A stretch of 64,000 bases of DNA, taken from the NCBI GenBank assembly GCA_029167225.1, contig JARFNK010000014.1, positions 1 to 64,000 of the forward strand, given 5' to 3'. Below, piece after piece: positions 14,988 to 35,411 of this stretch; position 1 is the first letter of the stretch, and each line of letters starts with the position of its first letter. Under the pieces are notes generated by a model that saw only the letters and a list, made by a program, of their open reading frames with translations, was not told where the DNA came from and ran no database searches. A program made the position numbers and the translations under genes. This DNA is from Sphingobium arseniciresistens (GTDB lineage: Bacteria > Pseudomonadota > Alphaproteobacteria > Sphingomonadales > Sphingomonadaceae).

Positions 14988-17825
14988 TCAGTTACCCTCG
15001 CTGGTCCTGGTTACCTCAATCGTCTTCTCGTTCGCCTTGTCGTCTCCCTTGAAGAAGGTCAGCGGCACAGTACGGGACGCGGGAAGACTCTCGGTTGAGG
15101 CTGTCGCGAACTTCACCTTGAGCGACTTCCCGCCCTTACCAGGCGTTAGAAGTGTCGCGGTTTGACCGTTGAGCGTCACCGCAGTCAATTGGTTGAGCTT
15201 TTCACCGGTGACCGTAAACTCGACCTCTCCTGGCGCACGGATAACCGTCGGAGTGAGGGTGGCGACCGTGGGTCCCTCAGCGGCCTTCGCGGCTGGTTTG
15301 CAGTCGCCCTTCTTGTGGACGAAATCTACCATCGCACTGGGGTCGCCATAGGGGGTCAGCAACGTTAGTCGAAGCTGGGCATCGGCGACATCGCCAATCG
15401 CCGCATCGAGTGCGGGCACATCGAGGAGTACACCAGCCATGTCTGGCGCGGCCGAAATTGCGGTCGGTCCCAGCCGATACCCGTTGATCAATGCGACACT
15501 AGCTCGCCAAAGATCGTCACCGGCGACCTTGAGCGTCGTTGGGAGGCAGGCGTTTACCGATTGCCCCCGGAGAGCTGCGGCCGCGATCGTTGCCCGCCGC
15601 GGAACGGCGACGCCGCGGTTTGCGAGTTGAGCAGTCATCACCGCATAGTCGGCGGCGTTCAGCCGTCGGAAGACAGGCGCGGTTCGACGGCCTTGCTGGC
15701 CGGATACGCTCCCGAAGTCGCCTGACGCGAGCATGCCCTCGGATATGGCGGAAGGCTTTGGCGCCCAAGCCGTCATCGTCTCGACCTGAAAAGACGGCCA
15801 CCAACTCGGCACCGAGAGGTCGACGGTTAAATCATACTCCCGGAGGCTTTGATCCATCTCGATCTTGCCCTTCGCGTCAATCGTCGCGCGCGGTCCGAGC
15901 ACCCAGCCGAAGGTCTGTTGCGCGCGCAAAGAATAGCCGACGACCGCCGGAACGCGCTCGAGAGCAGCCGCGCGGCCCATCGCCTGACGTGAATAGGAGC
16001 CCGCGGCGTTGGCAGCTACGCCGGACCCGGGAGCCGAGCCAGCGACAGAAAGCGCGAGCTGCAGGCTGTTCGCCGCACGCGCAACGGTCGATACCTGCTG
16101 CACTAAATTGCGCGGGCCAACCTCGTAGATCGAAACCTGTCCTGGGTTGGAAAGCATGTCCGAAAAGCTCGGTGGCACGAACACCTGGCCCGACCCGTTT
16201 CGGTAGGCCTGGCGCTGGTCGCGCGTGCAGCCAGTATAGGCGAAGGTCTCGAGATTTGATAGCAGATCTTCCGATCGTTTGATTCTCTGAACGATCGGCT
16301 CAAGGTGGGGATCGCTGGGCGCCGCGATATTCTTTGCCGCAAGAAGGCTGCGCGCGAGGCGGTTGACCTCGAGCAGCTGGCCCCCACCGACTATCCGCAG
16401 GCGGGCTTCGCCTAGGCTTATATAGGCCTTGTCAACGGCGCCTGCGTTCGCGAGGCCCGGTGCTGCGGCGTGAGGAAGACCGCAGCTCGTAACGAGGTCG
16501 CCAGACTGACCGGCGATCGTCGCGCGCACCTGCTGGAAATCGGTGATCTCATTCGCCTCGCTGAAGGTGGCATTGTCGAGCTTAAATACCTCGACATAGC
16601 GATAGATGTCGGAAAAGCTGCCCTCTTGGGAGGAGCTCCCCTTGAACTTCGGCACAGCAAAGAACAGCGACGCGCAATCTGGATTTGGCGCTGCGGTAGC
16701 GCTGAGTATCAAGCCGGGACAAACCGTGGCCGGCACCGCTACTGCCGCGGGGGCTTTCGCTTTCGCTTTCGCTTTCGCCTTCGCTTTAGTCTTTCCTTTG
16801 GTCGCCGGCGCCGCGGCCGCTGGCACGGGCGGCGGTGAAGGTGCATAGCGGAATTCGACGAGGTCGAAACTCTGTGAGACTGAAGGTTGGAGCATGTCGG
16901 GGTTGGGATTCCATCGATTCCCATTCTCCACGTTTATCGTGCCGTTGAGATAGCTAATCCAGCCGCGATAGACGCCCTGCTCGAACTTGAGTTCCTCGTC
17001 AGTTGTGCCCGGCACGCGCTTCACCCTAACCTGGATCACGCCCGGGATGCCTGCCGCTTTGCGGTCAGGCATGATCATGGTGTGGAAGTTGAGGCGCGTG
17101 AGAGCGGCGCCGTTGTTGTCGTGAAGCTCGTCGAGACTCGCAGCGTTGCGTGCGGTCTTGAGCATGTCACGATATGAAACCCGGTCACGGAAAACATCGG
17201 CTGGGTTGGCCGTGGTGTTAGCTAACGCTGCGGGCTTGCCCTCAGCATCAAACCGGCTGGTAAGTCCGGCATTGAGGCGGTCGATAGCGGCCTTGAGCTG
17301 GTCTGCGGCAGCGACTGCTTGGCTCGCCGGAACCGTCGTGGATTTGGGATCGCCAAGAACAGCTATGTTGGGGCTCGCGGGGTCGGTCTGCTCGGCGAAC
17401 CGGCTTCGGACAATCTCGGCGTCTCGTTTTAGCTGGTCCAACTTCAGCTGCATCTGCACGACGTCGATTTGTTGTTGGATTGCACCAGTCTCGTTGGCAC
17501 GCTTATAGTTGATTGCGCCCACGGGGTCGAAGCTGAGGCCGAGCGCGGCCGCGATTGATACGATCTGCTCGACCTCGCGAGCGATCTCTGGCTTAAACTC
17601 GATCGTCTTGCTCTGCTCGATCAATTGATCGAGCCAAGCCATCTCGCCGATCCGCTCGTTGATCAGCGCCTCGCGCCGATACTCCTTGGGATCTGAGACG
17701 GTGATAGTGCCTGGTGCCGGACGCCCGTTCCACTCGATGCCGGTTGATTGCGCAAATGGGCTGGCGCAGCCGCTCAAGCCCAGCATCACGACAAATACGG
17801 CGGAAGACGCGCCCTTGGTCCTCAT
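14988..17825 (-). CDS. Large predicted lipoprotein with a C-terminal IPT/TIG-like domain
   Basis: The 945-aa product starts MRTKGASSAVFVVMLGLSGC, a lipoprotein signal with predicted lipidated Cys at residue 20. A coiled-coil-like segment follows (about 100-140, QQQIDVVQMQLKLDQLKRDA). In the middle is a low-complexity (Ala-Lys) repeat, encoded by tandem hexamers, that may act as a flexible linker. The end (about 855-935: VATLTPTVIRAPGEVEFTVT) resembles an IPT/TIG immunoglobulin-like domain. The ATG at 17825 is chosen because it places the signal peptide at the N terminus; 22 extra codons upstream are open. The function is unknown, perhaps a cell-surface structure. It shares an operon with the small gene downstream. 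Confidence 0.7.
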   Translation of the reverse strand: MRTKGASSAVFVVMLGLSGCASPFAQSTGIEWNGRPAPGTITVSDPKEYRREALINERIGEMAWLDQLIEQSKTIEFKPEIAREVEQIVSIAAALGLSFDPVGAINYKRANETGAIQQQIDVVQMQLKLDQLKRDAEIVRSRFAEQTDPASPNIAVLGDPKSTTVPASQAVAAADQLKAAIDRLNAGLTSRFDAEGKPAALANTTANPADVFRDRVSYRDMLKTARNAASLDELHDNNGAALTRLNFHTMIMPDRKAAGIPGVIQVRVKRVPGTTDEELKFEQGVYRGWISYLNGTINVENGNRWNPNPDMLQPSVSQSFDLVEFRYAPSPPPVPAAAAPATKGKTKAKAKAKAKAKAPAAVAVPATVCPGLILSATAAPNPDCASLFFAVPKFKGSSSQEGSFSDIYRYVEVFKLDNATFSEANEITDFQQVRATIAGQSGDLVTSCGLPHAAAPGLANAGAVDKAYISLGEARLRIVGGGQLLEVNRLARSLLAAKNIAAPSDPHLEPIVQRIKRSEDLLSNLETFAYTGCTRDQRQAYRNGSGQVFVPPSFSDMLSNPGQVSIYEVGPRNLVQQVSTVARAANSLQLALSVAGSAPGSGVAANAAGSYSRQAMGRAAALERVPAVVGYSLRAQQTFGWVLGPRATIDAKGKIEMDQSLREYDLTVDLSVPSWWPSFQVETMTAWAPKPSAISEGMLASGDFGSVSGQQGRRTAPVFRRLNAADYAVMTAQLANRGVAVPRRATIAAAALRGQSVNACLPTTLKVAGDDLWRASVALINGYRLGPTAISAAPDMAGVLLDVPALDAAIGDVADAQLRLTLLTPYGDPSAMVDFVHKKGDCKPAAKAAEGPTVATLTPTVIRAPGEVEFTVTGEKLNQLTAVTLNGQTATLLTPGKGGKSLKVKFATASTESLPASRTVPLTFFKGDDKANEKTIEVTRTSEGN
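16753..16788 (-). repeat. Tandem hexamer repeat coding for Ala-Lys
   Basis: Six tandem hexamers of the GCTTTC type (two of them with one change) inside the large lipoprotein gene, read on the minus strand as alternating Ala-Lys codons. The repeat length is a multiple of three, so changes in copy number would alter linker length without breaking the frame. Confidence 0.75.
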
Positions 17826-18180
17826 ACCACACCCCCTGCGGTTGACGCCGAATCGGCCGCTCCCCTGCGGCGTCTTCCCGTCGGCGATCACAATGTAGAT
17901 TGTTGTTAGAACTGATCTTGAGTCAAGCGGAGTAACGCCGAAGATGAAGTATTCAATTGAATGAGCATTATCTTATGGTAGTGCCAAGTCAATCGTTATG
18001 GCGTATTTAGGCTGCGTTGACGGGATACGCACAGATTTGGATACGACGCTAAGGGAATTGGTATCGGTGCACACGATTGATCCCTCGTGCTTTGCAAAAA
18101 TCCCTTAAACGACGACAGGCCAAAACGTCAAGCTAACCTACTAATGCCACTAGCTTTATTCTTGGATTGGACGCTTAGGG
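17826..18180. other. Upstream region of the lipoprotein gene, no gene recognised
   Basis: A 355-bp stretch between the lipoprotein gene start and the IS66 end, A/T richer than its surroundings. It should hold the lipoprotein promoter, but no clear -35/-10 pair stands out. No open frame of note crosses it. The last eight bases, GCTTAGGG, are the left copy of the IS66 target duplication. Confidence 0.4.
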
Positions 18181-19636
18181 GTAATTGCTCACGGGGTTGG
18201 CCAAGGGCTGCAGGCTCAGGCGACGGCGAACCTGCCCTCGACGAGTTCGCGCACAGCCTGAAGGGCTGACTTTCCCTGCAGGCGTGCGGTGCCGGTCACG
18301 GATCGATAGCCGGCGTGGATCTGGGCGCCCCAGTCGGACCGGAAGCCGTTTGTGACCTTGCGGAACACAACCGAGGGGCGGATCTCACGCTCGGATATGT
18401 TGTTGGTCGCAGGGACGTCGCGGTTGCTGAGGAAGACGAAGAACTTGCCCCGCCATGCCTTGATCTGTTTGAGCAGGATCTTGCCTGCGGGATGCGCGAT
18501 GGGCATCCGCATGAGGCGGGTCAGCACGGTATCGGCCTTGGCACAATAGGCCGCCAGGGTCGTATCCTTCAGGCCGCTTCGTCGCTTGCCGATGCGTATG
18601 GCCCAGCGCAGATGGTCGCGGACCTTCGGGGCAAAGGCCCGGTCACCGCAGTCGATGGCATATTGTACGTCGCGCAGGACATGGGCGAGGCAGACCTGGT
18701 GCTCCTTGCCCAGTTCCTGTTGTCCGGCATAGCGGTCCGAGATCCACACATCGGGCTGATGTCCGCCCAGAACTTCCTCGGCGACACTGCGCGCCCGGCG
18801 CCGGGCGATCCTGTGCAGGACGGCCTCCTTCGAGAGGAAGACCCACTGCCAATGGATGATGCCGTTAGTGCGGGTCGTGGTCTCGTCGGATGCGATGACC
18901 CGTGCGGTCAGCAGTTTGTCGGTGATCGCGCGGGTCGCCGTTGCCATGCCTGCTTCCATGCGCCGGAAGGCATTGGCGATGGCGCCCTGAGAGATGCTCA
19001 GGCCGAACAGTTCCGATGTAATGCGCGACAGGCGCTCGAAACTGACATGATGGCTGTGGTGCAGATAGGCGAGTAAAGCGCGGATGCCCGGTCCAAACGG
19101 GGTTCCCGGCTCCATTCCGGCCGGGGCTGGCGCGCGCTATCGGTGTCCACACCCCCGGCAGCGCCCACCCAGCAGTTCCACCCTGGTCACAACTGGGCGG
19201 ATCGGCGGCAGGTCGATATGATCGTAACGATGCCGGCAATGCTGGGTCTGGCCGGAAACGTCGCCTCCGCAATGGCCACACGCAGCAGCCAGCACGCGCT
19301 CGGTCTTGTCCGGCGTTTCCGCAAGCGGGCGATGCCTGCGTTCACGCGAAGGACGCTTGCCCGGCTTCGCCTTGCGACCTTTGCCGCCACCCTTGCCGAA
19401 ATCGTCCTTGGAGGGCGGCACATGCGAGTTCTTCGACGTCTTGCGCGGTTTGCCGACCAGTTCCTCCAGTTCGGAAATCCGGGCAGCCATACGCTCGATC
19501 ATATCGTGTTGCGCGAGCAGAAGTTCGTTCTTCTCGGCTTCGCTCAGGACATGAAGGGGTGGTGGCGGCATGCACAGGGTGAATCAGGCATTGCCAGACC
19601 GCGCAACCTCTTTTTGCCACCCCCCTGAGCAATTAC
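18181..19636 (-). mobile_element. IS66-family element (tnpC only) with 8-bp target duplication
   Basis: A 1456-bp element. Its left end GTAATTGCTCACGGGGTTGG at 18181 matches the inverted right end GTAATTGCTCAGGGGGGTGG ending at 19636; GTAA ends are typical of IS66. The 8-bp duplication GCTTAGGG lies directly outside both ends (18173-18180 and 19637-19644), the usual IS66 value. Only the large transposase tnpC is present, without tnpA and tnpB, as in the ISBst12-like subgroup. The uninterrupted target can be rebuilt by joining 18180 to 19645. Confidence 0.9.
18216..19571 (-). pseudogene. IS66-family transposase TnpC with in-frame amber codon
   Basis: The N-terminal part (144 codons from 19571) has the coiled-coil leader (ISELEELVGKPRKTSKNSHV), the basic region and the zinc-finger cysteines CGHCGG and CRGCGHR. 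A TAG at 19137-19139 then stops it. The same frame resumes at once as RAPAPAGMEPGTPFGPGIRA and runs 299 codons from the next ATG to a normal end, with the DDE core segments VIASDETTTR, DVWISDRYAG and NISEREIRPS. The amber codon most likely replaces a Tyr codon. Unless it is read through, no full-length transposase is made. Both element ends and the target duplication are intact, so inactivation is probably recent. Confidence 0.88.
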
Positions 19637-19803: not shown

Positions 19804-20247
19804 TCACCGAAAAAGGGGAAGTCCGTTCGCGCCATCGGGTGGCAGCGTAAGCCGTGCCAGCAAGTCCTTGAGGACCGGACCGATTGGGACCAGCGCGGTA
19901 AGCGCTTCTGGTGGCGGTGCGCTGATGGTGCGGATCGCGACCTTTCGATCCTCCGGCATAAATTCAAGTCGCAAATGTGAGGCTTCGTCGAGCGTGACCG
20001 ATCGGCACAGATCGACCAGTTGCTCGGCAACTGGCTCCAGCAGTCCCACTCTGATTTCTAGGTCGATGACTAGACGTCGCACAAGTGCGAGCGCGAAAAG
20101 ATCCACAAAGTCGAACACGGACTGCCTGCCCCGTTCGCTGCCGATAGCCGGCAGCAACTTTCGCCAGTTTCGCAAGCGCTCGGTATCGATGTCGAGCAAC
20201 TCACGGACGTGTTTGGGGCCGTACAGAGGGGAGCCGGGATTGACCAT
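19804..20247 (-). CDS. MerR-like helix-turn-helix protein, divergent from the caspase cassette
   Basis: A 147-aa protein whose first 60 residues resemble a MerR-type DNA-binding head: YGPKHVRELLDIDTERLRNW, then a wing-like region (SERGRQSVFDFVDLFALALV). The C-terminal half has no sensor domain or metal-binding cysteines I recognise. It is transcribed away from the caspase-like gene across about 150 bp, so it may regulate that cassette. It lies 168 bp from the IS66 right end. The DNA-binding assignment is moderate; the regulatory link rests on gene order only. Confidence 0.6.
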   Translation of the reverse strand: MVNPGSPLYGPKHVRELLDIDTERLRNWRKLLPAIGSERGRQSVFDFVDLFALALVRRLVIDLEIRVGLLEPVAEQLVDLCRSVTLDEASHLRLEFMPEDRKVAIRTISAPPPEALTALVPIGPVLKDLLARLTLPPDGANGLPLFR

Positions 20248-20403: not shown

Positions 20404-21555
20404 GTGACCGCGCTCCTCGCTCTTGATCGGTCCGATGCAGCGGTCCACGTCCTCATCATCGCCGTCGGCCGCTATGCCGACAAAGATCTTAAGCCTCTAC
20501 CTGGCGCCGTTCTGTCTGCCGAGCGGCTCGCTGAGTTTTGGCGCGATGCGCCGCTCGCTGGCGGTCGGCAACTAGGCTCGATCGAACTGTTGGTCTCCAG
20601 TGAGAAGCCGCTCGAGATGATCGGGGTTGATGGCGTCAAGCAGGTGATTGAGCCTGCGACCTTTGATGCTGTCGGCAAGGCGATCCAGGACTGGGCGGAT
20701 CGCTGTTCCCAAGGCGCGATGGGGATCTTTCACTGGATCGGCCATGGCGAGACAGTCTCGCTGACCGATGAAGCCGGTGCCAACAATGATGCCTGCCATG
20801 CGCTTTACACTGAGGACCTGTATCGACTGGGCGATCAGGTCATACGGACTGGCTATCATTGGGGTAATACCCTGCGCGATTTGCAGCGCGTCGTGCCGAA
20901 ACCGATGCTCTGCTTCATCGATGCGTGCAGCCATGCGCCGGAGAAAAGCCGGGATGAAGGGTTTTCTTCAGTGTTTCGAATGACAAAGGGGCCCATAAAA
21001 TCGCGTGCCGACGTTTTTCTCTCAACGCGACCAGGTGCAAAGGCGCATAGCGCCCGGGAAGATCAGGATGTCGGCGGTGATTTCGTTGGGGGCGCGCTCT
21101 TCTCCGAGGGAGTTCGTCTTGCCTTGACCCGGTTTGGTGCCGATGAGCGTGACGAAGAGGGCTATGCCGTGTTTCCCGATTTCATAAAGCGCGCTGCAGA
21201 CAGTCGTTTTGGGCGCTGGCGACGTCGGCATGGTGAGCTGAAAGATCTGGGTGAGGTCTTCGTCGTCCAAGGCGCCTTCTCGAAGGCGGTCGTGAAATTG
21301 GCTGCGCCCTTCGGGATGGTTGACCTGGTTCCGCATGACCGCAGGACGAAGAACAAGAATTGCGAGGTCATGCACGATAAAGTCCCGCGGCATGAGCCGA
21401 GGCGCGCGAACGATCTCTGGGAAGCCGATCTGCCCTATGAGCGTGATTATCGTGCCAGCATAATGGAAAATCCCGGCTTCGCGCGCGAGGTGCAGGAACC
21501 CGCAACCAAATTGTTCGCCATCCATTCTCCTCACCGCAGGCTGGAGGTGATTTAA
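20404..21555 (+). CDS. Caspase-like (C14 family) cysteine peptidase
   Basis: A 383-aa protein with the caspase/metacaspase core at its N terminus: strand HVLIIAVGRY followed by the PGAVLSAERLAEF helix; catalytic His in HWIGHGE (about residue 114); and catalytic Cys in CFIDACSHAPE (about residue 175), the family D-x-C motif at the end of a strand. GGALFSEGVRLAL near 230-240 matches the following family block. The remaining 140 residues are basic and unassigned and could be a substrate- or partner-binding part. The GTG start has GAGGCGGG upstream; an in-frame TTG at 20350 is possible. It heads a same-strand cassette. Bacterial caspase-like proteases act in cell death and phage defence, but here the role is inferred. 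Confidence 0.8.
   Translation: MTALLALDRSDAAVHVLIIAVGRYADKDLKPLPGAVLSAERLAEFWRDAPLAGGRQLGSIELLVSSEKPLEMIGVDGVKQVIEPATFDAVGKAIQDWADRCSQGAMGIFHWIGHGETVSLTDEAGANNDACHALYTEDLYRLGDQVIRTGYHWGNTLRDLQRVVPKPMLCFIDACSHAPEKSRDEGFSSVFRMTKGPIKSRADVFLSTRPGAKAHSAREDQDVGGDFVGGALFSEGVRLALTRFGADERDEEGYAVFPDFIKRAADSRFGRWRRRHGELKDLGEVFVVQGAFSKAVVKLAAPFGMVDLVPHDRRTKNKNCEVMHDKVPRHEPRRANDLWEADLPYERDYRASIMENPGFAREVQEPATKLFAIHSPHRRLEVI
21543..21550 (+). promoter_or_regulatory. Strong ribosome binding site selecting a TTG start
   Basis: GGAGGTGA, nearly a full anti-16S complement, lies seven bases before the TTG at 21558 and inside the last codons of the caspase-like gene. It supports the unusual start and coupled translation of the two genes. 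Confidence 0.75.
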
Positions 21556-21557
21556 CC

Positions 21558-22679
21558 TTGGCAACCGTGTCCGATCTCGCAATCCCGCTGTTCGTCACCG
21601 CAAGGCGGAAGGCTGGCGGGATCGTCCACATGTTACTCAAGGCTGGCGTTGTCGCGGACAGCGACGGTCCGTTCCAATGCCATGCTTCCGCCCCCAACGG
21701 ACGGGAAGCCGAAGGAACGGTTCAGCGGCTCGATTATCATGAGGTCAGGCAGCTGTTCGAGAAAACCGGCGATCTCAACCTCGTCGTCGATAGAGGTCGT
21801 TTCGGTGCCGGAAAGCGATTGAAGTCGGTCGGCCTCAATCTCTGGTCAGCCGGCAAGGTGGTCGATGCGGAGAAGGGGCAGATCGAATTGGCACAAGGGC
21901 CGCCAGGCGCGGCGCATCTTCGAATAGCTCAAGCGGCTGAAGCCCCGATCAACCATGTCCAAGTGTGGAGTACGCCAGGTGCCGTTATGGTTTCGGTATG
22001 GCCTGTCGGTGGGACTCTGTTTCCTTTGCCGGGCTTGCCGGATGTCCAGCGTCGCGTCCGGCCCGTCATCCTGGGCCCTGACTTGCAATGTTCCTCATAT
22101 TGGGGCTTCTATCGCCATTCGATGGTGCCGGCGGTACGCCAGCTCGGTGCCGAACTGCTCGAGAAGGCGCTCGATCCTAAAGCGAAAGCCAGTGAGGATG
22201 AACTGCTGGTCGCAAGTCATTATGCGCTGAACTTTCTTCCACCTTCACCCGGGCAACTCGGCCCACTCGCGAGCCGCTTGAGTGCCTGCTCCGGCAGTGA
22301 TGCCGCGATCATGTCATGGTCGATCGGCTTCGATGCCGCGGAGACATTTTCGCAAGAGTCCCCTCGGGTGACATTCGAGCGCGCGATCCTCGCCCTCGCA
22401 GGCAAGGGTTGCCTATACACCGAAGTTTTCCGCATGCTCATCCAGCGCCTTGGCGAGGCCGAAGAAATCTGGCGAGATGAACCGCCCGGGCAAGAGCCTC
22501 CGTCCGCCGATGTTGAAACGGCGATCCAATGGGCCAAGCAGCTTGCCACTGCCACTTATTGGGACGCGGAGCACCTCACGTACCGTGCCCTTGATCCCTG
22601 CCTCCCCAATGCACACGCAACCTCCGACCAGTTGGTCGGGGGTGCAAAAAAAAAATGTGTCATCTTACCTCTTAAATGA
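21558..22679 (+). CDS. Unknown protein coupled to the caspase-like peptidase
   Basis: A 373-aa protein starting at TTG two bases after the caspase stop, behind a near-perfect ribosome binding site, so the two genes are one translational unit. I recognise no family. The first 150 residues look beta-rich ([21 protein letters not shown]) and the rest helical ([40 protein letters not shown]). No signal peptide or membrane helix is seen. It could be an adaptor, regulator or substrate of the peptidase. The last codons cross a run of ten A residues (22646-22655); a one-base slip there would open the frame of the S5 gene downstream. Confidence 0.7.
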
Positions 22680-22809
22680 GGCCACGGATCAGAACTTCAG
22701 GTCCCTTGGTGTCGGGCCTGCGTTCGGGGAATCGCCCCCCCTTGTGAAAAATCTGGCATCTACTTCGGCCGCCGTCTCCGTCGAGAAGGCCAATGTCGAG
22801 GCGCCGAGT

Positions 22810-23508
22810 ATGCGGGTTCCCGTCGCCGCTGACGAACAACATCCGGCGCGCGAATTTGAGCCCGTGAGAGACGCCGGCGCGCGCAGACCGGACCGCGGCG
22901 GTCGCGGTAATCGCGGCGGTCGGGGCCGACGCGACGACCGACGTGGAGGCCGCAGCACCGAGGACGATGGCGGCGAGGAGTTCATCGAGAAGCTGGTCCA
23001 CATCAACCGCGTTTCCAAGACGGTGAAGGGCGGCAAGCGCTTTGGCTTTGCGGCGCTCGTCGTCGTGGGCGATGGCAAGGGCCGTGCCGGATTTGGACAT
23101 GGCAAGGCGCGCGAGGTCCCCGAGGCGATCAGCAAGGCGACTGCGGCGGCCAAGAAGGCCATGGTCCGCGTGCCGCTGAAGGAAGGCCGCACCTTGCACC
23201 ATGATGGCCTCGGTCATTTTGGCGCCGGCAAGGTGACGTTGCGGACTGCACCTCCGGGCACCGGCATCATCGCGGGAGGTCCTATGCGCGCTGTTTTCGA
23301 GAGCCTTGGTGTTGCCGACGTAGTGACCAAGTCGAACGGTACATCGAACCCCTATAACATGATCCGGGCGACCTTCGCCGCGCTCACTGAGCAGACCAGC
23401 CCCAAGTCGGTCGCCCAGCGTCGCGGCAAGAAGGTCGCCGACCTGCTTCGTCGTGGTGGGACCTCTGCCGCCGTTGCCGCGGCCGACGCCGAGGCAATTG
23501 CGGAGTGA
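22810..23508 (+). CDS. Second copy of 30S ribosomal protein S5 (uS5)
   Basis: A 232-aa full-length uS5. A Gly/Arg-rich N-terminal extension ([20 protein letters not shown]), usual in sphingomonads, leads to the S5 N-terminal domain (58-121: [20 protein letters not shown]) and the C-terminal domain ([39 protein letters not shown]). The loop VKGGKRFGF, where spectinomycin-resistance changes occur in E. coli S5, looks unaltered. There are no neighbouring spc-operon genes (rplR, rpmD), so this is almost certainly an extra copy carried with the caspase cassette. The ATG at 22810 gives a normal length; the frame is open further upstream into the previous gene. Whether it enters ribosomes is unknown. 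Confidence 0.85.
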
Positions 23509-23563
23509 AGGTGGTGTGACAGACACTGCGGGTGAGGTGAATATCTGATCAAGGGGAATAATA

Positions 23564-24028
23564 ATGGCTCCGCTATCAATCACGAATCCTAGTCCGTTTT
23601 CGCTGCTGAAGCGCCGTAGCAGGAAAGGCTTTGATACTCAGGGTAGTTCCGGTGGCTCGGATACGCCTTCGACCGCTGCCGAAGCCTATGCGCTGAACCT
23701 CGCCAAGCTCATCCCTGGTGACACGATCGCCCTCTACAGCCTGCTCAATCAAATTCCGCTTCCGGCCGGTGGGGAGGACTATCACATTGCGCCCGTTATC
23801 TGCGTCGTCGAACTCTTCCTGCTACGCGTGTTCGCGACCAAGACGAAAGGGGCTGCTCCCCGCTGGCTGCTGGTAATTGTGTCACTCTTGACCTTCATCT
23901 GCTGGACCTATGTCCAAAATGACTGGTTCTGGAACTTGAAACCGACCGCCTATGCAAAATATACATTCAACGTACTTTTGTTTTCCGTGGCCTTCATTGC
24001 GCCGATTTTCATTGGCGAGGAGAATTAA
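23564..24028 (+). CDS. Small membrane protein with three predicted helices
   Basis: A 154-aa protein with a basic, Ser/Gly-rich N-terminal region of about 70 residues and then three hydrophobic segments (about 77-93 VICVVELFLLRVFA, 101-117 WLLVIVSLLTFICW, and 134-150 LLFSVAFIAPIFIG). No signal peptide or known family. An AAGGGG site precedes the ATG. It lies 55 bp after the S5 paralogue on the same strand and seems to be the last gene of the cassette. A membrane protein beside a caspase-like protease could be an effector activated by cleavage, or an anchor, but this is inference. Confidence 0.65.
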   Translation: MAPLSITNPSPFSLLKRRSRKGFDTQGSSGGSDTPSTAAEAYALNLAKLIPGDTIALYSLLNQIPLPAGGEDYHIAPVICVVELFLLRVFATKTKGAAPRWLLVIVSLLTFICWTYVQNDWFWNLKPTAYAKYTFNVLLFSVAFIAPIFIGEEN

Positions 24029-24569
24029 GGCTCGTTCGAGATTCTGCCGCCACTGTCGGTCGTCTAATCGCCCCTCTGTCAAGACTAACCAGCCTTCGTT
24101 GGTTCATGAGTGATGCCATGCGTATGCCGGGTACAGGGTCGTCTACGCGGTCGATACAAAGTTGATCGCCGCAGGATGGGTTCCGTAGGTGAGATCTTCC
24201 TATGTTCGTGACGCAATCTACTCATCGGGGTAGTTGCTTCCCGCTTCTCGGAATTGTCTCATCCGCGTCCCGGCCGGGACGGTTCGGCACAGCGCGTCAT
24301 ACGTCCCCGATATGGTCGATCCAGACCGTCTCTAAGCCTTCCACGTCGAAAACCAGCATCCACAGAGCCTGGCGCTCTTCGGCTCTTTGCCAAAGGATGT
24401 GCCGGTGAGTTCTCTGACGGACTGAGGCCATTGCCGCCGTGGCAGCAGCTTCGCAGTAGTCCCGCAGTCGGCAATGATTGCAATTCCGCCATGTCGAATC
24501 GGCTTTCCTGCCCGAGCCAACTACCGCCTTTCTGCTCTTAATTGATTTGCTTGCATCCGTGTCTGCGGA
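24029..24569. other. Intergenic region containing an IS1182 end remnant
   Basis: A 541-bp gap between the membrane protein gene and the convergent RadC-like gene. The part before 24293 shows no gene or repeat. The next 132 bp are a diverged IS1182 right end (listed separately), and the rest is unassigned. Confidence 0.5.
24293..24424 (+). mobile_element. IS1182 right-end remnant
   Basis: This stretch aligns over its full length with the non-coding right end of the IS1182-family element at 5708-5840. Shared blocks include CCAGCATCCACAGAG and GGCGCTCTTCGGCTCT, and both end in a GACGGACTG terminus. By eye the identity is about 80 percent. No transposase coding sequence or left inverted repeat is present nearby, so this is the leftover end of a related, older insertion. 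Confidence 0.75.
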
Positions 24570-27195: not shown

Positions 27196-27495
27196 TTGCC
27201 CAAGGTCAATTTTCGCCTCGATGGGGCGCTGCACGCAGCGTTGACGCGACGTGCGCGCGGTACGAACCTCTCTTTGTCGGGTTTCATCCGCCAGCTGCTT
27301 GAGCAGGCGGTCGATGAACGCAAGCGCTACGTCTTCTCCTCGCAGGATGAGATCCTCGCCACCTCGATCCAGATCCTCTCGATCGTCGCGACGTCCGTCG
27401 GCCAGCAGTCTCCCAAGGCGCTCGAGCAGGGAATGGCCCAAGCCCGCGCCATTCTCGCCGAACGCGGTCTGCTTGGCGGGGAGGATGCCCTATGA
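27196..27495 (+). CDS. Ribbon-helix-helix protein of the mobilization operon
   Basis: A 99-aa protein beginning PKVNFRLDGALHAALTRRAR, the strand and first helix of a ribbon-helix-helix (Arc/CopG-like) DNA-binding fold, followed by NLSLSGFIRQLLEQAV. RHH proteins at the head of relaxase operons bind the transfer origin and regulate or recruit the relaxase. The start is TTG, supported by GGGAG upstream. The stop overlaps the start of the coupling-protein gene by four bases. The second half is helical with no assigned role. Confidence 0.7.
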   Translation: MPKVNFRLDGALHAALTRRARGTNLSLSGFIRQLLEQAVDERKRYVFSSQDEILATSIQILSIVATSVGQQSPKALEQGMAQARAILAERGLLGGEDAL

Positions 27496-29582
27496 GCATC
27501 TTCCGCAACGATATGCTGGGTTCATGGACGCGCGGCGGCCAGGCGATCGTCCACAACGTCCGCATGACCACGCAGGTCTTCTACCAGACCATATTGGCCG
27601 GCTCTATCATCTGGATCATCGGCACAGTCTGGTATGCGTTCGAGAAATCGAGCGAATATGAGCGTTTCGTTCTGCTCAAGCTGGCCGAAGCGACCATCAA
27701 GGTCGATGCGGCCGGCGGAACCAATGACCCTGTACAATTCCGCACGCCGGAAGGGCAGGATTATTGGACTTCGGCGGACTGGCTGGTTGCCTCGGCGCTC
27801 GCGAAGAAGACCCTTCGGTCTTTCGAGGGCTATCTGCTGCACGGTGCGCTGATTGCGGGGCTGTTCACTTTTGTCATGCTCGCCTGGGCGTGGTTCTACT
27901 TCACCCGGACGGGCAGGGGCCTGGGCTCCAACGAATATCTACGCGGCGCGCGCTTCGGCACCATCCGGCAAGTCCGACGTGCGCTGTGGGGCCAGAAAAA
28001 GGGGCCCCTCGTCATCGGGGCTGTTCCGGTTCCCGAAGCCTTCGAGCCCGAGCATATCCTGCTATGCGGGGCACCAGGTACCGGCAAGACCAACCTCATC
28101 GTGGGCATGCTCGACGGCATCCGCAAATCGGGCCGTCGCGCCATCGTCTATGATACCGCCGGTACCTTCGTCGAGAAATTCTATCGTCAGGGCACCGATA
28201 TGCTGCTCAACCCGCTCGATCAGCGCACGGCGCGCTGGTCGCCCTGGGTCGATGTGCCGCGCGATTATCATTATGATCAGATCGCCGAGTCGACGATTCC
28301 CGACAAGCATGGCGATCCCTTCTGGGCCAAGGCGGCGCGGGGCACCCTGGTCGCTGTCATGCGCAAGCTGGCGCGTCAGAAGCACACCTATGTCTCGGTC
28401 CTGCTGGATCGGCTGCTGCGCTCGAAGCTCAAGGATTTGGCTGCCTTCGTGATCGGCACCGATGCCGCCGCCTTCATCAGCACCGAGGGCGAACGGACAT
28501 CCGCCGGCATTCAGGCCGAACTCGCCTCGGTGATGCGCAGCTTCGGCTATCTCGATGATACCGAGGACGGCTTCTCGATCCGGGACTGGGTGGAGAAGGG
28601 TGAAGAGGGCAGTTGGCTTTTCATCACCGTGAAAGCCGATCAGCTACCCTCGCTCCGCCCTTTGATCACCGTCTGGCTCGACATCGCCATCAGCGCCATC
28701 ATGAGCCTGACGCCGGATCGCGACCGGCGGCTTTATTGCGTGATCGACGAATTGCCGACGCTGCAGAAGCTGCCGTCGCTCTCAGACTTTCTCGCCCGTG
28801 CCCGCAAATATGGCGGGTGCGGCATATTGGGCTTCCAGTCCTATCCCCAGCTCAAGGCGACCTACGGCAAGGAAGATGCCGCAGCGATCACCGGCTATTG
28901 TTCGACCTGGGTGGCGCTGCGGGCGAATGACACGGATACTGCGGAGCATGTCTCGATCAACCTCGGTCAGGTTGAGCAGGTCGAGGCCAATGAAGGCATG
29001 TCCTATGGCGTCAACGACATGCGCGACGGCGTCAACCTGTCGCGCATGCAGGTGACCCGCCCGCTGGTGATGCCGACCGAGGTCACCAACCTGCCCAATC
29101 TGATCGGCTTCCTGCGCTTCGGCCGCAATCTTCCCGTGGTGCGGTTTGAAAGCCAGTTCAACGACATTCCCTCGCTGGGAGAAGCCTTTTCCGAGCGCAC
29201 GGATCCGCCCGTCCAGATCGACAAGGCGCAAGCTCTCGTTCGCATTGCCCACGCCGAATCGCGTGTCCGTGAAGCCATGGAGCGCGAGGCCGCGCAGGCT
29301 CAGCCAACTCCCAACGCGGTGGACAAGCCATCCAAGAAACCCCGGCCATCTCCTGATGCACAGGCGCCCCCACCTCCACAGCCGGATCTGTTCAACCCGC
29401 CCATGCCTGAGATCGATCCGCAGCGGGTTGAGGACATCTTGCTGAATGAAGAGCATGCCGAACTCCCGGCTCCCGCGCGAACCCTTTGGACCATCCTTGC
29501 CGGCAAGCAGGGGGAGATTCGTTCGGACCTTGTCCAGCACGGCCGTGAAGACGGCCCGCGCGAACCGGCGAGGCCGGCATGA
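27492..29582 (+). CDS. traD: Type IV coupling protein, TraD/VirD4 family
   Basis: A 696-aa membrane ATPase that links the relaxase-DNA complex to a conjugation channel. Two N-terminal membrane helices (about 30-46 and 110-130) precede the ATPase domain, with Walker A GAPGTGKTNLIV near residue 197 and Walker B YCVIDELPTL near 417. LLGFQSYPQL-like sequence (GILGFQSYPQLKAT) follows. The C-terminal tail is Pro-rich and acidic, probably for cargo contact. It overlaps both neighbours by four bases (ATGA junctions), giving a tightly coupled RHH-TraD-relaxase operon. It matches the F-type TraD/TraG group; the symbol is by family resemblance. Confidence 0.9.
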   Translation: MSIFRNDMLGSWTRGGQAIVHNVRMTTQVFYQTILAGSIIWIIGTVWYAFEKSSEYERFVLLKLAEATIKVDAAGGTNDPVQFRTPEGQDYWTSADWLVASALAKKTLRSFEGYLLHGALIAGLFTFVMLAWAWFYFTRTGRGLGSNEYLRGARFGTIRQVRRALWGQKKGPLVIGAVPVPEAFEPEHILLCGAPGTGKTNLIVGMLDGIRKSGRRAIVYDTAGTFVEKFYRQGTDMLLNPLDQRTARWSPWVDVPRDYHYDQIAESTIPDKHGDPFWAKAARGTLVAVMRKLARQKHTYVSVLLDRLLRSKLKDLAAFVIGTDAAAFISTEGERTSAGIQAELASVMRSFGYLDDTEDGFSIRDWVEKGEEGSWLFITVKADQLPSLRPLITVWLDIAISAIMSLTPDRDRRLYCVIDELPTLQKLPSLSDFLARARKYGGCGILGFQSYPQLKATYGKEDAAAITGYCSTWVALRANDTDTAEHVSINLGQVEQVEANEGMSYGVNDMRDGVNLSRMQVTRPLVMPTEVTNLPNLIGFLRFGRNLPVVRFESQFNDIPSLGEAFSERTDPPVQIDKAQALVRIAHAESRVREAMEREAAQAQPTPNAVDKPSKKPRPSPDAQAPPPPQPDLFNPPMPEIDPQRVEDILLNEEHAELPAPARTLWTILAGKQGEIRSDLVQHGREDGPREPARPA

Positions 29583-32533
29583 TCCAACCTCAGCGCCTCC
29601 ATGGTCAGCCTGCTAACATTGCCCGCTATTATACGGTGGGCGACTATTACACCAAGGGTGGGAACGAGCCTTCGGAATGGGCCGGCAAGCTCGCGGACGA
29701 TCTTGGCCTGTCAGGCGCGGTCGACCCGAAAGTCTTCCGGGCGCTTCTCGCGGGCAAGGTCGGCGACCAGCAGCTTGGCCGTTACCGAGGCGACGGGCAG
29801 ATCCAACATCATCCCGGCTGGGACTTTGCGGTCAACGCGCCCAAGTCGGTGTCGATCATGGCGCTGGTGGCGGGGGACGAGCGCGTGCTTGCCGCCCATG
29901 AGCGAGCGGTGACCGCCGCCATCTCCTATCTGGAGGAGCAGGCGCAACTGCGCCGCCGGGATGAAGGCAAGATCGTGCACGAAACCACCGGTCGCATCCT
30001 CGTCGCGCGCTTCACCGAACATGGCAGCCGGGAACTCGACCCCCATCTCCACACCCATCTGGTCGTCCTCAACATGACCAACCGCCAAGCCGGCGATCCG
30101 ATGGCGAGCCTGGAAAGCCGGGTCATGTATGGCGAGCAGCGCGTCGCCGGCCAGATTTACCGCAATGCCCTGGCCTTTACTTTGCGCGAGGCAGGCTATG
30201 AGATCGACACCGACCCACGATCGGGCCTGTTTGAAATACGCGGTGTGCCCGGGGATCTCATCGCGCAATTCTCGCAGCGCGCCGAGGCGATCGAGGAACA
30301 TGCCCGCGAACATGGGCTGGTCGGGCAGAAGGCGCAGCGCGCCTCTTTCTATGCCACGCGCAAGGCCAAGGTGAAGATCGGCAAGGAAGAACTTGTCGCG
30401 CGGTGGCACCAGCGCACAGGACCCCGCCTCGAGACGCTTCACCTGATCGCCGCCGCGACGCAGGAGCGCAAGGACATGCACCTGTCACCCACCGAACGGG
30501 AGGCATCGCGCGCGGCGCTTTTCGGCTTGCGGCAGTTGGAGACCACGGAAGCAGTCAACAATCTCGGCGATATCCTGCGCACAGGGCTCGCTGCCCATGT
30601 CGGCGAGGTCCGGCTCGAGGATATCCGTCCCCGGATTGAAACTCACGAACTCGTCCGCAAGCTGCTCCCCACCCATGACCAGACCGGCGACAAGATCCTG
30701 ACCCGTGGGCGCACCAGCCGCAAAACCTGGCGACTGGAATTGGCGCTCACCCAGCATATCGCGCTGGGGCTGGGCGATACCCGCCCGATGGCCTCGAGCG
30801 ATCGACTGCTCGCCATCCTCGAGCGAACCGGCCTCAACAAGCAGCAACAGAATGCCCTTGTCGAGACGGCGTTGACCAGCGATCGCGTCACCGCCATCCA
30901 CGGTGTCGCGGGGTCCGGCAAATCGACCCTGGTTCGCGTGCTGGGCGAAGCAGCTGAGCCCGGCACGACCTTGATCGCCCTGGCGCCCACATCTTCGGCG
31001 GCAGCCGAACTGGGCAAGAAGGCCGACATAGCGTCCTTCACCGTTGCCGGTTTCGTCGCGCGAGGCGGGCAGGGGATCACCGACCGCCATGTGCTGGTCC
31101 TCGACGAGGCGGGGCAACTGAGTAACCGTCAGGCCCAGCGGCTACTTGAGATCAGCAGGACGACCGGGGCACGGTTGCTCTTCCTGGGCGACGAGAAACA
31201 GACCGGCGCCATCGAACAAGGCAAACCGTTCTGGCTGATGCGCAAGCTGGGCCTGCCGACGGTCGAACTCAGCCAGGCCGTGCGTCAGGAAACCAAATCG
31301 ATCAAGGCGGCGGTGACGGAGGCACGAGCCGGTAACTTCGCGCAAGCGCTTTCCAAGCTCGATAGCGTCAGCACCGTCACAGACAATGAGAAGATGGCTG
31401 AACAGGTCGTCCATGCCTGGGTGCGGCTCAAACCTGATTCGCGCTCGGGCACCAACATCCTCGTGCTCGACAATGCGACGCGCCTGATCGTCAACAGCAA
31501 GATTCGCGATGCGCTGAAAGGCGAGAATGGTCTCGCCGCCGAAGATAGCCGCCTGTCCATCCTCGCACCCGCCGGCCTGACGGACGTCGAGAAGCATATG
31601 GCGCGTTTCTACGGCGCTGGTCGGATCGTGCGCTTCGACCGCGATATCGTCGGTCTCGGTGTTGCCCGCCATGCCGACTATCGCGTTGCCGGACTGGGAC
31701 GTGAGCACAACGGCCGGCAGGTCGTGCGCCTCATCGATGAGCAGGGTCGCACGATTCGCTGGGACCCGCAGGCCACCAGGGCACGGCATATCAACATCTT
31801 CAATCCGGAGGATCGCGATCTTGCCGAGGGAGATCGTATCCAGTGGCGTCTCGTCAACCGTGACCTTGATCTGCGCAATGCCGAGCGCGGGACCGTGGAG
31901 AAGCTGGAAGGGGCGTTGGCAACGATCCGCTGGGATCGGGATGGGCGCGTACAGAAAGTCGATCTCTCCGAGCACAGGACCTGGGATCATGGCTATGCCG
32001 AGACCGTCTATTCCGCCCAGTCCAAAACCTATCCGCGCGTCTTCGTGCTGGCGCCGGTCGAATCGCCGCTCGTCAATGCCCAGAATTTCTACACCGCCAT
32101 CACCCGTGCGGCCTTCGGCGCCAGGCTTTGGACCAACGATGTCAAGGCGTTGATTGCAAAGCTTGAGCGGCAATCGGGCGAGAAAACATCTTCGTCCGAG
32201 GGGCTGGGCCGCCTGAAGGCAGACCGCGTCGATGCTCTCTCTAGCCGTCGTGGTGAGCATCTGGCCAACGTCAGGGCCGAACAGCAGCGAATGCGCGCGG
32301 AGCGCCGTGATCGAATGCTCGAACGGCAACTCGATCGCCGCCAGCGTCCGCCGCGCGGCGCCGCCGAACATCTCGCCGAGGGCGCGCGCAGCGTTGCGCA
32401 GCTCCTCGATCGCTTTCTCGAGGGCATTCTCGATCGCGCTCGCACTGATCGTGACGCGCCAGACAATCAGCCGGCGCGGCCGGCGCCATCTCCTGTCCAT
32501 CACCCCGAGCCCTCTCGCGAGCCCGAGCGATAA
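29579..32533 (+). CDS. traI: MobF-family conjugative relaxase-helicase (TraI/TrwC-like)
   Basis: A 984-aa protein. The N-terminal TrwC relaxase domain (about 1-300) has paired tyrosines (ARYYTVGDYY), GWDFAVNAPKSVSIMAL, and the metal-binding HxH in LDPHLHTHLVVLN. The helicase part has Walker A HGVAGSGKSTLVRV (about residue 440), Walker B VLVLDEAGQLSN, and a C-terminal UvrD-like motif AQNFYTAITRA. The tail is highly basic. Such enzymes nick the transfer origin, attach covalently to the DNA through tyrosine and unwind it during transfer. It is somewhat shorter than F TraI. No pilus or channel genes are seen, so transfer probably borrows another system. Confidence 0.93.
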   Translation: MIQPQRLHGQPANIARYYTVGDYYTKGGNEPSEWAGKLADDLGLSGAVDPKVFRALLAGKVGDQQLGRYRGDGQIQHHPGWDFAVNAPKSVSIMALVAGDERVLAAHERAVTAAISYLEEQAQLRRRDEGKIVHETTGRILVARFTEHGSRELDPHLHTHLVVLNMTNRQAGDPMASLESRVMYGEQRVAGQIYRNALAFTLREAGYEIDTDPRSGLFEIRGVPGDLIAQFSQRAEAIEEHAREHGLVGQKAQRASFYATRKAKVKIGKEELVARWHQRTGPRLETLHLIAAATQERKDMHLSPTEREASRAALFGLRQLETTEAVNNLGDILRTGLAAHVGEVRLEDIRPRIETHELVRKLLPTHDQTGDKILTRGRTSRKTWRLELALTQHIALGLGDTRPMASSDRLLAILERTGLNKQQQNALVETALTSDRVTAIHGVAGSGKSTLVRVLGEAAEPGTTLIALAPTSSAAAELGKKADIASFTVAGFVARGGQGITDRHVLVLDEAGQLSNRQAQRLLEISRTTGARLLFLGDEKQTGAIEQGKPFWLMRKLGLPTVELSQAVRQETKSIKAAVTEARAGNFAQALSKLDSVSTVTDNEKMAEQVVHAWVRLKPDSRSGTNILVLDNATRLIVNSKIRDALKGENGLAAEDSRLSILAPAGLTDVEKHMARFYGAGRIVRFDRDIVGLGVARHADYRVAGLGREHNGRQVVRLIDEQGRTIRWDPQATRARHINIFNPEDRDLAEGDRIQWRLVNRDLDLRNAERGTVEKLEGALATIRWDRDGRVQKVDLSEHRTWDHGYAETVYSAQSKTYPRVFVLAPVESPLVNAQNFYTAITRAAFGARLWTNDVKALIAKLERQSGEKTSSSEGLGRLKADRVDALSSRRGEHLANVRAEQQRMRAERRDRMLERQLDRRQRPPRGAAEHLAEGARSVAQLLDRFLEGILDRARTDRDAPDNQPARPAPSPVHHPEPSREPER

Positions 32534-34017: not shown

Positions 34018-34207
34018 ATCCTCACCACGACGCCCCAGTCTCGCCCAGGCCATCCGCATGGCCTGCGAGGGCGGACTGACGATCGTGCGTACCGAGATCC
34101 ACCCCGATGGGCGGATCATCCTCGTGCATCTGGAAACGGAACCATCCGCGGTTTCGTCGACCCCGTTCGACGAATGGAAGGCGCGGCGCGATGCGCGTCA
34201 ATCTTAA
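34001..34207 (+). CDS. Small protein encoded just before the integrase
   Basis: A 68-aa protein with a basic N terminus (GQRKSSPRRPSLAQAIRMA) and a predicted beta pair (LTIVRTEIHPDGRIILVHLE). It overlaps the integrase start by 17 bp, so it is translationally linked. Small proteins in this position often act as recombination directionality factors or integrase regulators, but it shows no clear excisionase helix-turn-helix. The start is GTG. Confidence 0.55.
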   Translation: MAGQRKSSPRRPSLAQAIRMACEGGLTIVRTEIHPDGRIILVHLETEPSAVSSTPFDEWKARRDARQS

Positions 34208-35264
34208 AGGTGTCCACAGGGTTCGTAAGAAACTGGCGACGGGCCTGTACGCGACCTACTATTACGCGTGGCGCGGGGGCCCCCGCATCGAGGCCAAATT
34301 CGGCACGCCGGAATTTCACCAGGCTTATGTCGCGGCCCATGCGACGCGATCCAACAAGCCGATCGATACGCTCAACGCGGTGTTTCGGGCTTTCGAGCAA
34401 TCCTCCGATTATACCCGTCTCGCTCCCCGGACCCGCAAGGACTATGGGAAGCATCTGAGATTCATCGAAACGGAGTTTGGAGATTTTCCGATAGGCGCAC
34501 TCGGTGACCCGCGCACGCGTGGCGAGTTTCTGGCCTGGCGCGATCGAATTGCCGGCTCATCGGAACGCACGGCAGATTATCGCTTTGCCGTCTTGGCGCG
34601 CATTCTTGCATGGGCCCTCGATCGCGGACTGGTCATCGCCAATCCCTGCAAGCGGCCTGGTCGCCTGTATCAATCCGGCCGCGTCGATTCCGTCTGGAAA
34701 GATGGTGACGAAGAAGCCTTCTACAAGCACGCGCCGCCCCACCTCCATCTGGCCATGACGCTCGCCTTGTGGACTGGACAGCGTCAAGGCGATCTCATCG
34801 ACCTTCCCTGGACGGCCTATGACGGCGCTGAAATCCGTCTCACGCAGAGCAAGACGAAGAGCAAGGTGAAGAACCGCAAGCCCAAGCGGGTGATCGTTCC
34901 TGTGGGAGCACCGCTCAAGCGTGCGCTGGACGCATTGAAGGCCAGCTACGACGTCGAGGGGAAGTCATTGCCGCCGACCATCCTGCTCACCGAACGCGGG
35001 CAATCCTGGACAAGCGACGGATTCAGGACATCGTGGCGCAAGGCCTGTGGGAAAGCCGGTATTGCTGGTCTCACTTTCCACGATCTGCGGGGCACAGTCG
35101 TGACCCGTCTGGCGATCGCAGGAGCGAGTGTTCCGCAGATCGCGACGATCACCGGGCATAGCCTCAAGGACGTCGAGACGATCCTCGATACGCACTATCT
35201 CAAGCGGGATTCCGAGATGGCGGAAACGGCCATTTCGAAGCTCGAAAACCGGAGGAAATTGTAA
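34191..35264 (+). CDS. int: Tyrosine recombinase / phage-type integrase
   Basis: A 357-aa site-specific recombinase. It has an N-terminal arm- and core-binding part (SAM-like segment around RTRKDYGKHLRFIETEF) and a catalytic domain with the conserved set: Arg in WTGQRQGDLIDLPW, Lys in the RLTQSKTKSK region, HxxR in FHDLRGTVVTRL, second His in ITGHSLKDV, and nucleophile Tyr in LDTHYLKRDS. The gene ends 71 bp from the 3' end of tRNA-Lys, the classic layout for an element integrated into a tRNA gene. The ATG at 34191 is chosen because the sequence before it lies inside the upstream small gene and is not integrase-like. Confidence 0.92.
   Translation: MRVNLKGVHRVRKKLATGLYATYYYAWRGGPRIEAKFGTPEFHQAYVAAHATRSNKPIDTLNAVFRAFEQSSDYTRLAPRTRKDYGKHLRFIETEFGDFPIGALGDPRTRGEFLAWRDRIAGSSERTADYRFAVLARILAWALDRGLVIANPCKRPGRLYQSGRVDSVWKDGDEEAFYKHAPPHLHLAMTLALWTGQRQGDLIDLPWTAYDGAEIRLTQSKTKSKVKNRKPKRVIVPVGAPLKRALDALKASYDVEGKSLPPTILLTERGQSWTSDGFRTSWRKACGKAGIAGLTFHDLRGTVVTRLAIAGASVPQIATITGHSLKDVETILDTHYLKRDSEMAETAISKLENRRKL

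Positions 35265-35335: not shown

Positions 35336-35411
<76 letters not shown>

Follow-up and report, generated by a model that had tools for sequence, protein, structure and literature searches.

The four genes at 20404-24028 in a stretch of DNA from Sphingobium arseniciresistens pose the question whether a bacterial caspase and the three genes behind it form one protease-driven defence module and, if so, what the protease would act on. They lie on the + strand of our window, the whole stretch of 64,000 nucleotides that was analysed (assembly GCA_029167225.1, contig JARFNK010000014.1, positions 1 to 64,000). In open frames they encode a caspase-family peptidase, a 373-aa protein, an extra copy of the ribosomal protein uS5 (S5) and a 154-aa membrane protein (Table 1). 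An earlier note on this DNA had placed the four genes here, which holds, and had read them as a protease module that responds to stress or phage and acts on, or protects, the ribosome or membrane. Our best guess is a mobile protease operon that resembles the anti-phage system canu and carries an altered payload, a reading that we put forward tentatively and at somewhat less than even confidence. It is the combination of a caspase, a coupled neighbour and a mobile setting that points in this direction.

The caspase is a member of Pfam Peptidase_C14 (26.4 bits; cut-off 21.4) and matches the PADLOC 'caspase' model at 44.2 bits, in a scan that covered five proteins (the cassette and its divergent neighbour). 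His114 (codon 20743-20745) and Cys175 (codon 20926-20928), the putative catalytic pair, are invariant in all seven aligned sequences, i.e. six relatives and the window's own. The C14-type assignment thus stands, and so does the conservation of its active site, which the earlier note had singled out for checking. A profile of eight related caspases, built without the window's, detects it at 62.7 bits (E 4.7e-19, among 258 open reading frames (ORFs)). A rough tree of 47 caspase domains, left unrooted, groups it with caspases from Bradyrhizobium, Caballeronia, Sinorhizobium and Streptomyces and with a second one from Bradyrhizobium, separate from most caspases of the class; the supports around it are 0.39, 0.86, 0.60 and 0.83 from the inner to the outer node. 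The genome collections that we searched are samples of the GTDB genomes. Using a seven-row profile, caspases were found in 42 of 385 class genomes (own included), and the matches listed all lie at or below 52.4 bits except the two of the own genome and those in G569 and G605. A search of solved chains by sequence returned no match to the caspase. With the EACC1-associated caspases (NCBIfam NF047832) it has a short N-terminal match in common, at 19.2 bits against a cut-off of 140, but no EACC1-type partner occurs among the five window proteins scanned. By sequence comparison, the window caspase is related to the canu-like caspases of the loci opened here without being a clean member.

Canu is an anti-phage system. 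According to Tuck et al. 2025 (PMC12799240), the operon of K. aerogenes gives protection from phage T4, and the caspase CanA, complexed or co-purified with CanB, activates the gated nuclease CanC. A tblastn search of 72,556 plasmid records with the window caspase matched three records, and two were opened. On both plasmids, from Bradyrhizobium and Streptomyces, the caspase is directly followed by an uncharacterised gene and then by a metallo-β-lactamase (MBL)-like gene. Searches seeded from these two loci led to 13 more plasmid regions, 12 of them with an annotated caspase. The resulting comparison set holds 17 caspase loci besides the window's: plasmid regions and three genome stretches, one of which is contig C36 of the own genome. 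A match to the profile of the partner gene lies beside or within the caspase gene at 14 of these 17 loci; nine of the 14 are in the profile itself, and three of the other five match inside the caspase ORF. The profile is unmatched at L019 (similarity by tblastn only), at L025 and at L027, where an insertion sequence follows the caspase. Five of the seven third genes tested against MBL models match at E<=0.01, three of them above the Pfam cut-off. We identify the plasmid loci as canu because their layout and families match, an identification made apart from the locus list of the paper.

The own genome contains a second caspase-partner locus, at 7005-10910 of L059 (G000:C36:32000-48000), in which the gene ahead of the caspase has weak, below-cut-off matches to alpha/beta-hydrolases. 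The same order of hydrolase-like gene, caspase and partner is seen in G605 (L060 4163-8098), where the next ORF matches SIR2 and HATPase_c_4. Like the window, both loci have a caspase-partner pair with no MBL gene in the third slot. They differ from it in that an extra gene precedes the caspase and in that their partners fit the partner profile, being in it, whereas the 373-aa protein does not. The hydrolase-like gene at these two loci suggests that the caspase-partner pair may take other payloads.

The 373-aa protein fits the partner slot by position, size and coupling only. Its TTG start lies 2 bases past the caspase stop, and GGAGGTGAT is located within the 3' end of the caspase gene, in agreement with the translational coupling proposed earlier; the two proteins may work together. 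Its family is a different matter. Across Pfam, PADLOC, NCBIfam and PHROGs, the sole library match is a single PHROG at E 0.13. No relative was found in the 72,556 plasmid records, in genome_contigs or viral_contigs by the patterns used, among solved structures, or at E<=0.001 in the 41 other caspase-bearing class genomes (best other match E 0.016). A match in G149, one of 298 family genomes, reached E 4e-4 (2e-6 for the pair alone) and gave the strongest signal on shuffling (z 16.9, 30 shuffles), the next being z 6.2 with an unrelated window ORF. We treated it as chance because the matching frame lies opposite an S8-peptidase-like gene (by eye) and is the best of about 300 genomes. Homology to the caspase partners was likewise unsupported by hmmsearch, hhalign and pairwise scores, and for the Bosea partner an apparent z of 4.4 dropped to 2.0 once 1000 shuffles were used. 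Single-sequence models reached a pLDDT of 37 for the 373-aa protein (strands first, helices after; given no weight) and 31 for the caspase, too low for a fold search.

The window thus shares with CanABC a leading caspase of a related group, a tightly coupled, mid-sized second protein and a mobile context. It differs in that the second protein has no recognisable homology to the other partners and in that S5 and the membrane protein occupy the slot of the MBL nuclease. A CanB-type partner sequence and a downstream MBL nuclease were looked for and not found, and we therefore do not file the cassette as a canu member. A number of results count against a canu-like operon. The cassette was seen in one genome only. 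Neither the next genes nor the 10 further window ORFs scanned contain an MBL or a CanC, and in the annotation and ORF lists of the 17 other loci S5 and the membrane protein never adjoin the caspase. The 373-aa protein has no accepted relative in any collection searched, scores -0.8 bits against the nine-partner profile, which is chance level, and when ORFs are compared with it the ten that bear a partner rank 20th to 239th of 246. As to the caspase, eight caspases outside the profile outscore it (89.5-234 bits), several of them without the three-gene layout. The canu-like caspases do not form one clade in the tree either, as the Agrobacterium, Rhizobium and Bosea members and the one at the own second locus fall elsewhere. 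As a single query, the window caspase matched only itself in 296 order genomes, and a search of genome_contigs with one stretch of it returned nothing. For the Ig-like domain found at the C-terminus of canu caspases, the match of the window caspase is weak (2.5 bits, E 0.0097, one comparison). What is left of the proposed defence-type module is a caspase with relatives in anti-phage operons, a coupled gene of partner size and mobile, variable DNA; recurrence extends to the caspase and partner, and not to S5, the membrane gene or the 373-aa protein itself.

The S5 gene is a genuine second copy. It is a member of TIGR01021 (204.6 bits; cut-off 164.05), so that the full-length extra uS5 of the earlier note stands, with a start that probably has to be corrected. 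At the 150 columns that are invariant across 30 genus sequences it shows no departure, and against six S5 genes, among them that of the host, it has a dN/dS of 0.02-0.07, compared with 0.03-0.09 for six ordinary S5 pairs. The host's own S5 sits among ribosomal protein genes and is 84-85% identical to the window core in DNA, while the genus member G076 reaches 88%. In a tree of 60 S5 genes, the window copy joins G899 (0.92) and then G076 (0.81), apart from the host copy. The copy is thus intact and probably came from within the genus. The two copies in the host are conserved at the same core positions; the window's differs in being a lone gene, in grouping with other lineages and in its N-terminal tail, which is not the same and is probably longer. 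It is rare for a genome to have a second full S5: one of 61 genus genomes has one (other second matches span 30-66 bases), as do two of 159 family genomes (the own and G070). S5-like DNA is present in 13 plasmid records, and in the two that were opened (Sphingomonas, Sphingopyxis) a complete ribosomal protein operon lies on a large replicon.

In 28 of 30 genus S5 copies the protein starts with MADE or, once, MAEE (by eye), followed by a variable Gly/Arg-rich tail, and the remaining two are cut short. The window S5 lacks this start, and its frame is open 5' of ATG 22810, with GTG 22657 and GTG 22744 as further candidate starts. Over 22656-22809, the S5 frame has a codon score of +10.4 bits, as opposed to -12.0 and -27.9 for the other forward frames and 2.0 for the best on the other strand; in the reference, open off-frame segments of this length reach 3.1 at the 95th and 19.1 at the 99th percentile, and true in-frame segments 12.2 at the 25th. 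Judging from codon use, the S5 frame therefore probably codes from about 22656 onwards, ahead of ATG 22810. For segments this short the measure is noisy, since in 22810-22970 the S5 frame scores only 4.3 and two wrong frames are higher (8.1 and 11.2).

The fourth protein has three hydrophobic segments, as described earlier. At E<=1 it is unmatched in Pfam, PADLOC, NCBIfam and PHROGs. Besides its own genome, matches were seen in two of 298 family genomes, one being a stand-alone protein of 164 aa and 30% identity (G096) and the other a stretch within a longer ORF (G238). In 210 class genomes there were two borderline matches besides its own (E about 5e-4), and the plasmid records contained no match to the protein or to its G096 relative.

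Do these four genes belong together? All four score best in their own codon frame, and the arrangement is compatible with a single operon: 2 bases separate the caspase from the 373-aa ORF and 55 bases S5 from the membrane gene, the 373-aa gene and S5 overlap by 23 bases if S5 starts at GTG 22657, and no terminator-like site on the + strand was found between the genes. Against this stands the view that caspase and 373-aa protein are one unit, and that S5 and the membrane gene are unrelated cargo in a variable island. Their absence beside the caspase at all 17 other loci, the lack of a plasmid match to the membrane protein and of a caspase plasmid among the 13 S5-like records, the grouping of S5 with other genus lineages, the stand-alone state of the one membrane-protein relative (G096) and the IS66 remnants and mobile genes around the cassette would all be expected in that case. 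The shared strand, the tight spacing, the overlap of the S5 frame with the 373-aa gene and the missing terminator would not. We consider such a chance neighbourhood a strong contender that also falls short of even. A single unit and chance neighbours are at about equal odds, since what assigns a role to S5 and the membrane protein is spacing, strand and an overlapping frame in one genome. Among the literature matches listed, no publication describes a cassette of caspase and S5.

If the four genes do form a canu-like operon whose payload has changed, the CanA-like caspase and the 373-aa protein, which takes the place of CanB, would act as a sensor-protease pair that is activated upon infection or a similar stress. 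In canu, the third gene encodes the caspase's own substrate, the gated nuclease, and by analogy the likely target is the co-encoded S5, whose tail would be cut, or the membrane protein, which would be released. The N-terminal tail of S5 is probably long and disordered. As a result, growth would stop. Trigger, substrate and growth arrest are all conjectural steps in this scheme.

A bolder and unlikely version is that the caspase defence is wired to the ribosome, either through a partner-S5 fusion produced by slippage at a run of ten adenines (A10) or through the tailed S5 as caspase substrate, so that proteolysis would occur at the ribosome in place of nuclease release. The A10 run is the only homopolymer of at least 8 in the 64-kb window and ends one base before GTG 22657. 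In other bacteria, homopolymer runs of this kind lead to slippage. As the 373-aa frame is followed by S5 in the +1 frame, a slip of one base here would join the two proteins. In the specific form of a ribosome-tethered sensor, a fraction of the 373-aa protein would thereby be fused to S5 and anchored on the ribosome, where take-over of translation by a phage would be the trigger. The missing genus-type S5 start and the coding-like sequence directly after the run are compatible with it; however, a start at GTG 22657 accounts for the frame without slippage, signs of slippage are lacking and there is a single genome to go by, and we consider this form quite improbable. Equally improbable is that the locus has decayed or is an artefact of assembly or binning. 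Of the 61 genus genomes listed, this assembly is admittedly the largest (6.6 Mb, 120 contigs, 6.02% contamination), but unrelated genes flank S5, the contig runs on into a block conserved in relatives, and neither the own-frame codon use of all four genes nor the undisturbed S5 core speaks of decay. The least probable is an antidote, in which the caspase attacks host S5 and the carried copy, with its faithful core and changed tail, substitutes for it, as nothing ties the caspase to S5 and the tested canu caspase pair (PMC12799240) activates a co-encoded nuclease.

The surroundings of the cassette are those of accessory DNA, as had been supposed. Downstream follow a RadC-domain ORF and then a coupling protein, a relaxase, an integrase and tRNA-Lys. 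The block right of the tRNA is conserved in relatives and continuous on the same contig. Over about 16 kb to its left, the window has no DNA in common with any of four relatives fetched (six searched); of the pairs of relatives compared among themselves (four of six possible), three share nothing and one shares 175 bases. Because the left DNA differs among relatives and the right block is conserved, we regard tRNA-Lys as an integration hotspot. No second att copy that would place the left boundary of the element was found in the window. At the same site, G907 carries a tandem pair of tRNA-Lys-like sequences (L140 16019-16211). Known defence genes did not appear in a Pfam scan of 10 further window ORFs. 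The divergent gene matches no model, MerR or other, in the four libraries at E<=1; its MerR-like label goes back to inspection by eye. Left of the cassette, DNA matching a Novosphingobium IS66 gene covers 18188-19636, and beyond this remnant lies a 967-aa ORF (14988-17891) that by eye resembles a lipoprotein and that no Pfam model matches at E<=0.01. A stretch of about 100-170 bases within 24121-24291 has similar DNA in 31 plasmid records, most of them alphaproteobacterial; it carries no annotated feature in the 15 records listed and fits no Rfam family at threshold.

Related caspases on other replicons have varied neighbours. On an Agrobacterium plasmid, the caspase-partner locus adjoins CHAT and S8 peptidase genes and, in divergent orientation, a gene with a TIR domain and one for a second caspase (L017 3349-4726). 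At L019, L024 and L025, the caspases adjoin very long proteins whose annotation names trypsin-like or phospholipase-D-like domains, as well as M12 peptidase or alpha/beta-hydrolase genes.

Table 1. Coordinates of the caspase cassette and of the mobile features around it in the 64-kb window.
Feature	Position	Strand	Basis
Caspase-family peptidase, CanA-like, 383 aa, GTG start	20404..21555	+	Pfam C14, PADLOC caspase, alignment, 8-caspase profile, tree
373-aa protein, family unknown, TTG start, CanB (partner) slot	21558..22679	+	ORF, position
A10 run, end of 373-aa gene	22646..22655	+	Homopolymer scan
Likely S5 N-terminal extension, candidate start GTG 22657	22657..22809	+	Codon score, translation
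Second uS5 (rpsE) copy, intact core, Gly/Arg-rich N-terminal tail	22810..23508	+	TIGR01021, S5 comparisons
154-aa protein, hydrophobic segments 74-92, 96-114, 133-151	23564..24028	+	ORF (ATG), translation
Divergent 147-aa putative regulator (MerR-like by eye only)	19804..20247	-	ORF only
IS66 transposase, two pieces	18216..19571	-	Pfam DDE_Tnp_IS66 for 18216-19115; second piece by eye
TrwB/TraG-type coupling protein	27492..29582	+	Pfam
TrwC-type relaxase/helicase	29579..32533	+	Pfam
Tyrosine integrase	34107..35264	+	Pfam Phage_integrase
tRNA-Lys(CTT); likely site of integration, likely right-hand limit of the variable DNA	35336..35411	-	Comparison with relatives

Taken together, even if the four genes are not one unit, the locus offers a canu-like caspase whose partner is of no known family, and its mobile DNA carries an additional uS5 that is intact, which is rare. 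If they do cooperate, protease-activated immunity in bacteria would extend past nucleases to a target on the ribosome or in the membrane. The caspase-partner pair would then be a general switch to which different payloads are attached, and the hydrolase-like locus in the same genome points the same way.

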